The position numbers and the translations under genes are program-made. From Chrysaora quinquecirrha (taxonomy: Eukaryota; Cnidaria; Scyphozoa; Semaeostomeae; Pelagiidae): a stretch of 64,000 bases of DNA. The first letter of the stretch is position 1, and each line of letters begins with the position of its first letter. Positions 24 through 51,839 of the stretch are shown one piece after another. The stretch lies in assembly GCA_014526335.1 (NCBI GenBank), contig JACTAT010000290.1:362579-426578 (forward strand). Reading direction: 5' to 3'. The notes under the pieces are model-generated. The model saw nothing but the letters and a program-made list of their open reading frames with translations, ran no database searches and was not told the DNA's origin.

Positions 24-222
24 CTCCGTTTCGGCAACCAGTTCTGGAAAGATCTTTATTTGCAACACCTATGTGCACTGTCTTTTTTGTAGTCTGTACA
101 TAATATTTTGTTTTTGATCCATCTGGAGGCATGTAAATCAAATTCTGGCCAGAGTGTGTTAAATGTACATGAACAAGTCGTTGATTTGAAAATAGACCTT
201 TTCCATATACTTCTATAAATAC
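24..222 (-). CDS. Exon 16: beta-rich segment ending in an EGF-like start
   Basis: The acceptor is tacag before GTATTT, and the frame enters in phase 0 directly after exon 15. The peptide starts VFIEVYGKGLFSNQ, contains HLTHSGQNLIYMPPDG, and ends LSRTGCRNGG. Alternating hydrophobic and polar residues suggest beta strands. The closing CRNGG resembles the first half of an EGF module. A GTTTGT donor after GGAG at 23 would give a phase 1 intron, as EGF exons usually have. The frame stays open to base 1, so the exon may instead run past the window edge. No named family was recognised for the beta-rich part. Confidence 0.8.
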
Positions 223-1254
223 CTGTACGTGAAAAAGAATCTTCAGCTGCAAAATGATTGCAATATCAAAGACATATTGTACTTCATCCATGATTTTTAC
301 TTTCAGGGTTTAAGGAAACCATGGATATTTTGGCAGGATGATAACAAAACATTGGGTAACTAGACAATTAGAACTGGCAATATTATCATCAAAATAAACT
401 TTTCTACCCCTTCATGGCACTAAAATGCTAAAATGGAAAAATGATGAATGAATTAAACAGTAGCTATCTTTTGAACTAGTTTTCCAAGCTATTCTTGTGA
501 GTTTCAAAAATTCAGACAATTCAAAGACTCTTTGTCTGGTACAAATTTACACTACTTAGGTAGACTTAATTTTTCTACGCTTGTCAAATTTGTTGATAAA
601 GAAATAGATGGAAGAAGAAATAGTGTCTTATATGTTATTGGCCATGAAATGAAATGTCGATGCTAACGTTTAGACTGCTTCTATTTACTCCCTATTTACT
701 GTTATGGAAGGTGCTGCGGCGTCGTATTCCGATGAAACTAGGTGTTCCAGTAGAGATCGTGGCTGTTCATATATAAGATATACTCTGCCATTGAAGTGTA
801 ACTGGTGAAACATCAGATCGCTCAATTTTACCTGCAAAGCTTGTGTGCGAGGACAGTGTTTTCAGTATTCGAGGGGTGTTCCTTTAACTGGACTCAACGA
901 CCTCAAGACCCCAGGCCATACGACTGTATGACCCAACAACCATACGACCCTATTTGAATTCAAAGTTGATTTTCTTAAAGGGCTTCAAGCCTTAATGCTT
1001 TTCATTTTAACTTTGATTATAGACAGCCAATAGGAATCATTTTGTCTGTGAATTTGACTTTGTGTACCTATTTCAGTAGCTATCATGATATCCATGCCAC
1101 GTGTTCAAATGTAAACATAATTTTGAATTTATGTTATTAGCCATTCTTTCGGGTTAATTAAAGGGCTTTCAAATGATAGTCCATGTTCAAAACTATGGTG
1201 TTGTTTTTCAACTTAGATTTTTATTCTTCAGCGTGGTTTAAGAGATCAAAGAAG
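223..1254. other. Intron sequence, no gene seen
   Basis: This is the left part of the intron between exons 16 and 15. No open reading frame with recognisable protein similarity, RNA gene or clear repeat structure was seen. A TATA-like stretch lies near 768-780, but nothing downstream supports it as a promoter. Confidence 0.5.
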
Positions 1255-1955
1255 GCCTAACTGAGAATTGCATAACAGAAGAATGTCTGGACCTGATTGA
1301 AAAACGCCGTAATCGAAAGCGGAGAGATCGCACACAGCTGAATATGAAGAGCTTAAGAAGTAGTACAGCAAAAATGTAAATACGCTAAGAGGAAATGGTT
1401 AGAAGACGCAATTGAAGGCGCTGAAAAGTTGTTCAATCTGGTAAAACCAAGGACATGTACAAATTGCCGCAGTCAACCAGGGCTTGGTTTAAAAAGCAAA
1501 ACTGGCGAGCTCATTCTTGATACTGAAGGTATCATGTATAGATGGTAAGAGTACTGTAAGAAACTGTTTGATGATGATAAAGTGGAAGATGATGACAACG
1601 ATTATTGTGACTTAGATGCTATAGGGTTAAAGCTCGATGTGCTGAAAGAGGAAATAATGAAGTCTATCCGCAACAGTAAGATCGATAATGGGGGCATTGA
1701 AGGCTGGATGTGATACTAATTTTGAATGTTTGAAACCGATCATTGACAAGATATGGGAATCGGAAGAGTTGGCTGAAGAATGGATAAAATCAGAATTGAT
1801 GGTTAAACCGAAGTTAGCAGAAACACAGAACTGTACAAAATACTGCTCATTAAGTCTGATTAGTCACGTATCGAAGCCTTTTTGGAAATATTGCGCCAAC
1901 GTTTAAACCATTTCGTTGGTCTAGAGATCGCAAGTAATATTTCAAATAATGTAAA
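1255..1955 (+). mobile_element. LINE relic (linker and start of reverse transcriptase), RTE-like
   Basis: Broken frames on the plus strand give ITEECLDLIEKRRNRKRR, then TGELILDTEG with a nearby EYCKKLF, then IDKIWESEELAEEWIKSEL and SLISHVSKPF. These match, in order, the linker and first reverse transcriptase motifs of the better preserved LINE at 17.1-19.0 kb (LIEDRRR, WKQYCEELY, SLISHSSKILLKII). Stops and shifts occur throughout. The catalytic core is absent, so this is a short dead fragment inside the intron. Confidence 0.7.
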
Positions 1956-50001: not shown

Positions 50002-51686
50002 CTCTGACATGACGTAATTATGACGTCACAAGGACAACAGAAAATATTTCGGAATCACAAAAAAAAACAAAGTACAATCCATGTGCAAAAATGCCTTTAA
50101 ACCATTGAAAACATTATAGAAGTCCAAAATGGTAGCATTTTGTGAATGCAATGAATGCTTAATTCTGTCTTACGTCATTGTGACTTCACATCGATAAAAA
50201 CGAGATTCAACTTGCCAGCATTCAAATTCGTAATGTCCATAAAAGTTTCTATCGATCCATACTAAATTCAGAAAATTGACAAAAAAATTCAGGGTGAGCT
50301 TATTCTGTGAGATTAGGATAATGACTTTTTCATGAAGTCAAAGAGACTCAGCAGTTTATTTATCGTTTCTTTGCTTTAAATCATTTTTAAAAGGCCTATT
50401 TAGCTGTCCAGATAAGGTTAACCCTATTCATACTTGGCTGTTTTGACTCATCAGTTCTGTGACTAAGACCCCCCACCTACGTATTTCCAAAACAGTAAGA
50501 GGTCGCTAAATGAAACTTGGCACAAGGATAAAGGGCCCTAAAAAGACCCTAAGAAGGTAATTTCAAGTTCTAAAAGTATAACGTGACGGCAAAATGACAT
50601 CATAAAATAAAAAAGTGCAATCATTAGATTTTCTTCCAAATTCTTCTGCTAGCGATTGCATTAAGGCAGAAAATAGTGCTTATCCATCACTTTGACAGCC
50701 ATTATACTCGGAAAAGAGCAAAAAGATTTCGAGTCGACGATTCAATTGGCAGAATGGCCCTTTTCGTAATATCAATGTCCACGTCGTTAATCTATTTCTT
50801 CGGTAGTTCAATTATTATTATTAACTCAAACTTCTCAAAATTATAGAAAATTTGAATAAAATGCAAAAACTTAATGCCTATATTTACAAATGACGTTATG
50901 TATAATGACATCATTTTGGTGACGTGAATGTGATGTCACAACAAACATAACTTCAAATTTTCACCAATGTGATAAAAATAGGCTATTTTCACGTTTTTTA
51001 ATACTTTTGAGTACTTTTATTCACTTTTGGCTCATTTTTCTAACCATCGTCACATATCTGTCTTTCAAAACTTGGTTTCCATGGCAACAGGATTGAAGCA
51101 ATGAAAGCGATAACAAAGTCCAAAGATGCGCTGATAAATTTTAGTAATTGTCAATAAGAATCAGGTTTAACTATTTTTCGATGCTATCCGAAGTTCCGAT
51201 GGGGGGGCCTAATAGGGTTAATGATGTGCAGCTGGTGAAAATTTTAGCTTTGCTCGATTTCTGCTCATTTGAAGTATTTATTAATGATGTCAAAAAGACC
51301 ATACTATTATTCAATGATTATCTTTATCAGTGAAGGTTGAAAATTGTTATCGAGCTATTAATTAAAGTATTTATCAATTTCGTGCTTCTTTATTTATTTC
51401 ACGAGCGTCAAAAACTTCTAAGAAGGTAGGAACAAATCATCTGAAGAAATGTAAATTCACTTGTTCTAACATTTTTGTTACAAAGTAGCAACATTTCGAT
51501 AATGAATCTTTTGGGTGTTACAGTGAATGGACTTCAGCAGCATATTTTTGTGAAGCATTCAATTATTGTTAGCAGTTAATGTTTATAGTCGTATCCATTT
51601 TATCTTTGCTGTGCTGAGCAATGATGGCTAGAAATCTAAATATCCCTTTATTGTTGTTCCAAATAATAAATAGTAATGTTTCTTAC
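50002..51686. other. Intron with a cluster of TGACGTCA/TGATGTCA-like palindromes
   Basis: ATGACGTCAC, TTACGTCATTGTGACTTCAC, AATGACATCATA and GTGACGTGAATGTGATGTCA occur between 50,018 and 50,940 (the first begins just inside this interval). No reading frame with a domain was seen. The motifs look like parts of a diverged repeat family. Confidence 0.45.
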
Positions 51687-51839
51687 AATTATAACAGAGA
51701 ATGTCTTCGCTAATTCCTGTTGAAGATATTTCTCTCTTCAAGTTTCCCGTATCATCCTTTGTTTGATCCGAAAAATCTTCAAAAGTGACATTCTCCACAC
51801 TTCCGCTTGATCCAGTCATTATTTTGGCAAACGGTGCAT
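51687..51839 (-). CDS. Exon 1 (first seen): N-terminal linker before the kringles
   Basis: The acceptor is tgtattgcag before ATGCACCG and the donor is GTAAGA after TATAATT. The exon is 153 nt, phase 1-1, joining exon 2 to create a Tyr. The peptide runs APFAKIMTGSSGSVENVTFE, then DFSDQTKDDTGNLKRE and ends EDILCYN. It is polar, with one Cys and an NVT glycosylation sequon. The frame stays open upstream to 52,086, so the exon could be longer. No signal peptide was found. Confidence 0.8.

Follow-up and report, generated by a model that had tools for sequence, protein, structure and literature searches.

The described systems closest to the gene reported here are the kringle proteins plasminogen and HGF and, for its Gly-rich part, collagen (PF01391) and the polyglycine-II proteins, such as the snow flea antifreeze protein and the gp38 adhesins of phages S16 and PP01; polyglycine-II bundles are reviewed in PMC8409303. 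The gene was found on the minus strand of a 64,000-nucleotide stretch of the scyphozoan Chrysaora quinquecirrha (contig JACTAT010000290.1, here C291, positions 362579-426578, from a genome of 328 Mb; this whole stretch is called the window), and it couples two kringles to a Gly-rich module, a long helical part and a C-terminal part. As in plasminogen and HGF, the kringles score far over the PF00051 cut-off and are carried by phase 1-1 exons, but the serine protease and other partner domains of those proteins were not found here, where Pfam recognizes kringles only. Kringle modules are known, whereas for their coupling to the Gly-rich module and the helical part we found no named family: the first-pass annotation knew of no described family with this combination, and none turned up when Pfam, NCBIfam, PDB and the literature were searched. 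The titles and abstract openings retrieved for kringles with cnidarian, exon-shuffling, glycine-rich, nematocyst or pore-forming terms, and for pore-forming with cnidarian terms, do not describe it, and the main text of PMC12549020 does not contain the word "kringle". The comparison of gene copies and the searches show, at the level of sequence, the gene structure and the identity of the kringles, and they place the Gly-rich module in a family that is widespread and has no name; the protein would most likely act in extracellular recognition, adhesion or defence.

Within the window, a frame-consistent chain of 16 exons runs from 51839 down to 24. The sixteen-exon chain of the first-pass annotation at 24-51839 is confirmed, but not as a whole gene: of 19 exons in all, three lie outside the window. 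The completed gene spans ~70 kb, with an unbroken 1189-codon frame that ends in TAA, and its modelled exons stay in frame at 18 of 18 junctions. An upstream search for phase-compatible first exons placed a signal-peptide exon 3.9 kb past the right end of the window, 29 of whose 32 residues are identical to those of the exon preceding a tandem copy of the gene; comparison with that copy located two 3' exons past the left end. The features are listed below, with positions in the window unless the contig is named.

Exon 1, C291:430454-430550 (outside the window), minus strand: putative signal peptide
Exon 2, 51687..51839, minus strand: acidic linker after the signal peptide, phase 1-1; 48% identical in the tandem copy
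Exon 3, 46347..46613, minus strand: kringle 1, phase 1-1; matches PF00051 and the plasminogen and HGF kringles in PDB
Exon 4, 36793..37068, minus strand: kringle 2, phase 1-1; the kringle of a third copy is 87% identical
Exon 5, 34806..34948, minus strand: leads into the Gly-rich module; 79% identical in the tandem copy, 94% in the third copy
Exon 6, 33906..34119, minus strand: first Gly-X-Y run of the module; found in the tandem and third copies and by the module profile
Exon 7, 33525..33634, minus strand: Gly-rich module; tandem and third copies, module profile
Exon 8, 33160..33283, minus strand: Gly-rich module; tandem copy, module profile
Exon 9, 30248..30379, minus strand: Gly-rich module; tandem copy, module profile
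Exon 10, 24795..24968, minus strand: end of the Gly-rich module; 40% identical in the tandem copy, with one stop there
Exon 11, 8931..9229, minus strand: helical part; 62% identical in the tandem copy
Exon 12, 7038..7238, minus strand: helical part, into the hydrophobic Gly-rich stretch; 59% identical in the tandem copy
Exon 13, 5097..5264, minus strand: helical part, placed by hand; 70% identical in the tandem copy
Exon 14, 3947..4314, minus strand: helical part, longest exon; 77% identical in the tandem copy, with one stop there
Exon 15, 3050..3275, minus strand: helical part; 64% identical in the tandem copy
Exon 16, 2598..2699, minus strand: start of the C-terminal part; 91% identical in the tandem copy
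Exon 17, 24..222, minus strand: C-terminal part; 83% identical in the tandem copy
Exon 18, C291:361742-361929 (outside the window), minus strand: C-terminal part
Exon 19, C291:360931-361059 (outside the window), minus strand: C-terminal part, TAA stop
Decayed kringle remnant, 22164..22367, minus strand: within intron 10/11, of phase 1; identity to the kringles 38-40%, with internal stops

The chain was built with a home-made exon chainer whose splice matrices were generic and whose codon scores came from training on exons chosen by eye; the transposon zone at 12.0-24.6 kb was left out. At an exon cost of 12.5 it proposed 15 exons, 13 of which were kept; two micro-exons (11523-11561 and 4825-4866) were dropped and three exons placed by hand, giving 16. 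Of the hand-placed exons, 3947-4314 and 3050-3275 were also chained when the cost was 9 or 11, and 5097-5264 was chained at none of the three costs 9, 11 and 12.5. Further small exons proposed at lower costs were dropped (e.g., 42689-42738 and 38241-38458), and the comparison with the tandem copy covered only the kept exons. The chainer itself gave the lower limit, 24; for the upper limit, 51839 was preferred to its 51959 with the first-pass coordinate in view, and an AG stands at the corresponding place in the tandem copy. With the same model, the best chain scores 97.4 on the minus strand against 2.4 on the plus strand and between -0.6 and 2.9 in all 20 first-order Markov simulations, in a control that omits the 12.0-24.6 kb zone throughout and favours the minus strand, on which the codon model was trained.

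The tandem copy lies upstream on the same strand of C291 (526011-468452) and has counterparts for 19 of the 19 exons with their order kept, exons 3 and 4 both matching its single kringle there, which supports the first-pass claim that a single host gene joins the two kringles to a Gly-rich segment and to a helical C-terminal part. At the homologous bases it has AG in 14 of the 18 acceptor positions and GT in 17 of the 18 donor positions; the exceptions are the exon 2 donor and the exon 3, 10, 13 and 19 acceptors. The acceptor of exon 3 is missed because the sole kringle of the copy at that place has its acceptor at the position of kringle 2, and the miss at exon 19 is one base, with a frame shift in the copy. 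The third, partial copy, on contig C275, contains a kringle followed by exons 5, 6 and 7 within 2.4 kb, with matching splice sites. The helical exons were not found at this third locus; among the best-scoring candidates genome-wide, the helical and C-terminal parts have 15 matches, 14 on C291 and one on C378. The C378 fragment (301112-301300) matches the surroundings of exon 13 at 84% identity if three stops are read through, and no other part of the gene was found at that place. Counting the gene itself with its two copies, three loci join a kringle to the Gly-rich part, and two of them also have the helical exons. Because the tandem copy keeps all 19 exons in order and the third copy keeps the succession from kringle to exons 5-7, the kringle and helical exons very probably belong to one gene. 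A kringle gene and a neighbouring Gly-rich/helical gene that were duplicated together would also preserve the order in a tandem block, but this is highly improbable given that the frame is kept from one signal-peptide exon through every junction and that in the copy on the other contig, too, exon 5 follows a kringle exon at a distance of 0.8 kb and the splice sites match; no search for a second signal-peptide exon between the kringles and exon 5 was part of this comparison.

Between the gene and its tandem copy, dN is 0.198 and dS 0.419, giving a dN/dS of 0.47 (1147 codons, with the single kringle counted twice), and the ratio ranges from 0 to 1.12 by exon. The tandem copy is probably decaying, since it has one in-frame stop each in exons 10 and 14; a frame shift is present in its last exon. 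These lesions in the copy would fit a window gene that is itself a decaying pseudogene, but there is very little likelihood of this when all 1189 codons of the window gene are open.

The kringles lie within residues 84-264, which hold 12 cysteines. The profile check proposed at first pass gave two stretches matching PF00051 with 174.1 bits together, against a cut-off of 34.3, and 100.7 and 91.6 bits when the kringles were scored singly; with the last two exons scanned separately, these are the only domains that Pfam recognizes in the protein. Each kringle occupies a single exon that is entered and left in phase 1. In PDB, kringle 1 scores best in the third kringle match of plasminogen and the second of HGF, its NPDGEPLPWCYTT and PRWEYC aligning with NPDADKGPWCFTT and VRWEYC of plasminogen. 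Compared by eye with the lysine site, kringle 1 retains most positions: the first acidic residue is conserved, the second is replaced by Glu, and the Arg and aromatic positions are preserved. Both are lacking in kringle 2 (aligned stretch NPKYQDVPWC); on this comparison, lysine binding by kringle 1 is possible and by kringle 2 unlikely.

Seven kringle copies were examined on C291: two in the gene, the decayed remnant, and four in the tandem copy, of which one precedes the Gly-rich part and three share the intron between exons 17 and 18, at 474.5-479.6 kb. The remnant in intron 10/11 and the three extra kringles in intron 17/18 both occupy phase-1 introns, which a phase 1-1 exon can enter with the frame unbroken. 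The placing of the kringle exons agrees with the class 1-1 rule for shuffled animal modules given in PMC8001218. Over 991 bases, the upstream flanks of the kringles at 476 and 474.7 kb share 86% identity, and the flank of the 479.5 kb kringle has ~310 bases in common at 88-93%; judged from these similar flanks, the three extra kringles are tandem exon duplications.

The Gly-rich part comprises residues 313-563 and is 20% Gly. A module profile built without this protein gave 85.9 bits for the module and 97.6 bits for the full protein, against at most 47.2 and 68.6 bits for Gly-fixed shuffles of the module. By these sequence comparisons, the module belongs to an unnamed family common to arthropods, one cyanobacterium and other proteins, whose members include Lycorma delicatula LOC142331672 (P0001), a protein of Orchesella dallaii (P0008), a "GTPase" of Synechocystis PCC 7509 (P0006), and P0004, P0007 and P0009-P0014, among others. 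For the module at least, this range is wider than the restriction to cnidarians that the first pass thought possible for the protein. The order is the same throughout: a beta stretch, a Gly-X-Y run, a second beta stretch, a GG-rich run and a "GKPGNGG"-type run. Unlike the protein described here, P0001, P0006 and P0008 have P-loop NTPase-like domains (weak, below the Pfam cut-off), and no kringle occurs in the Pfam annotations of any of the 19 proteins compared. In the Gly-fixed shuffle test, seven of the 19 reach z >= 5; P0006 has 0.6 and collagen-type proteins have 2.2-3.2, the latter giving 7-21 bits with the module profile. In the planthopper P0001, the springtail P0008 and P0016, the module is combined with a P-loop NTPase-like domain (below the cut-off) and with what looks like a signal peptide; a secreted P-loop protein would be unusual. 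Full-length relatives were not found with P0004 or P0006 among genome contigs, with P0004 or P0014 among viral contigs and plasmids, or with P0004 among phages, and P0006 matched three plasmid records by its P-loop part only.

Collagen shares the Gly-X-Y and GG-rich runs, but the runs here are short and interrupted and score 9.5 bits against a Pfam cut-off of 27.2, so the collagen-like reading made at first pass gives way to the module family. The model of the relative P0009 resembles the polyglycine-II proteins named above, and from it the Gly-rich module is predicted to be a short beta-solenoid with a polyglycine-II bundle. Were this bundle the working part, the protein could be a structural or surface-binding component of mucus, glue or extracellular matrix. 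We regard this as doubtful: fold resemblance is no proof of function, and relatives that carry the module beside P-loop NTPase-like domains, weak as these are, do not suggest a plain structural role.

A viral fold search with the P0009 model returned giant-virus proteins, including those of 1032 and 1137 residues (E 5e-9 and 2e-8); one protein in the list is labelled DUF7932, a term not found in a literature search. The module may, on this model, be present in giant viruses too. In PDB, the Gly-rich segment matched viral nucleoproteins at E 0.27, which was put down to chance; two PHROGs families of no assigned function (E 0.001 and 0.0027, on the Gly-rich part) were taken as Gly-rich resemblance.

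The helical part extends over approximately residues 564-984, as judged from residue propensity and by eye, and the C-terminal part, which reads by eye as beta-rich, starts at residue 985 and has a net charge of +18 over 1019-1189. Neither had a match better than E 1.7 in Pfam and PDB, which was also the outcome of the Pfam profile check proposed for the helical part; the latter had no match up to E 1 among PDB sequences, and NCBIfam gave a single match, under its cut-off, at E 0.041. The EGF-like terminus suggested earlier was not recovered, as residues 985-1189 match no Pfam family up to E 10. None of 7996 candidates from 5.8 billion proteins matched the helical part (residues 500-1051 of the 16-exon protein) at E 0.001, which is weak evidence of absence because the search needs exact common words and misses distant relatives.

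Residues 701-719 form a hydrophobic Gly-rich stretch with a counterpart in the tandem copy, and its mean Kyte-Doolittle value of 1.34 is modest, below the usual membrane-span level; a pore-former hairpin is therefore treated as a rival and not as a finding. According to this rival, the kringles would bind and the helical part with its hydrophobic tongue would perforate membranes, like alpha-helical pore formers, in defence or prey capture. It draws on the charged, helix-favouring sequence that flanks the stretch and on P0004 and P0014, in which, by eye, helical sequence surrounds a hydrophobic stretch and is followed by a C-terminal part. The fold model of P0014 likewise shows long helices round two short strands, but its pLDDT of 36 makes it unusable and its viral fold search meaningless. 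Against this rival, the helical part has no Pfam match better than E 1.7 and no PDB sequence match up to E 1, the similarity to the helical part of P0004 (shuffle z 5.3) is out of order and coiled-coil-like, that to P0014 has z 1.0, and the C-terminal parts have z -0.8 and 1.4 with no hhalign match; perforation is unlikely. The C-terminal likeness to P0004 and P0014 ("THSG" and "SPF..W"-like motifs, by eye) is accordingly not claimed. Similar C-terminal sequences presumably occur in very large hemipteran proteins.

With moderate confidence, we favour as the whole explanation a secreted kringle/Gly-rich-bundle protein that works extracellularly in recognition, adhesion or defence, a role that would fit all parts. 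The protein of ~130 kDa would consist of a signal peptide, an acidic linker with a net charge of -7, two kringles, the Gly-rich module, ~420 mainly helical residues and the C-terminal part. Secretion, proposed at first pass, is supported by the first exon, which reads by eye as a signal peptide and is conserved in the tandem copy. The kringles would serve as binding arms, joined to the Gly-rich/helical core via phase 1-1 exon shuffling; the Gly-rich bundle may provide a rigid platform for binding or display, itself perhaps surface-binding, and the helical part may be a stalk, an assembly element or a membrane-touching element. More tentatively, and with rather low probability, the protein could be the kringle-armed animal member of an unnamed effector-like family extending from bacteria to animals, an old microbial-type core having been recruited, given a secretion signal and provided with kringles, as new binding modules, by exon shuffling. 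Its parts would then be a polyglycine-II head, a helical membrane-active core with a hydrophobic hairpin and a C-terminal beta domain. The shuffling would be ongoing, as extra kringle exons are present in the phase-1 intron of the copy.

Other elements were observed in the window. Pao-type retroelement pieces (Peptidase_A17, an integrase core, DUF5641 and a weak aspartyl protease) lie in several frames on the plus strand at 12552-16854, within the long intron 10/11. RVT_1 fragments, LINE-like by guess, lie on the minus strand at 17258-18016, in the same intron, and at 55212-55604, beyond exon 2 in the first intron. Approximately 82 copies of the hexamer AATCTC with 95% matches lie at 23943-24433, downstream of exon 10, and a GAAT-type tetranucleotide array of ~200 copies at 62471-63266 has open frames in several registers and is not a gene.

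The gene brings together the kringle, a classic case of exon shuffling in animals, and a Gly-rich module that received no name from the Pfam and NCBIfam searches and recurs in arthropods, a cyanobacterium and others. Within one small gene family, kringle exons stand at different points between fresh duplication and decay. Annotators would benefit if the Gly-rich module were given a family name, and for the helical core membrane activity is a question open to testing.
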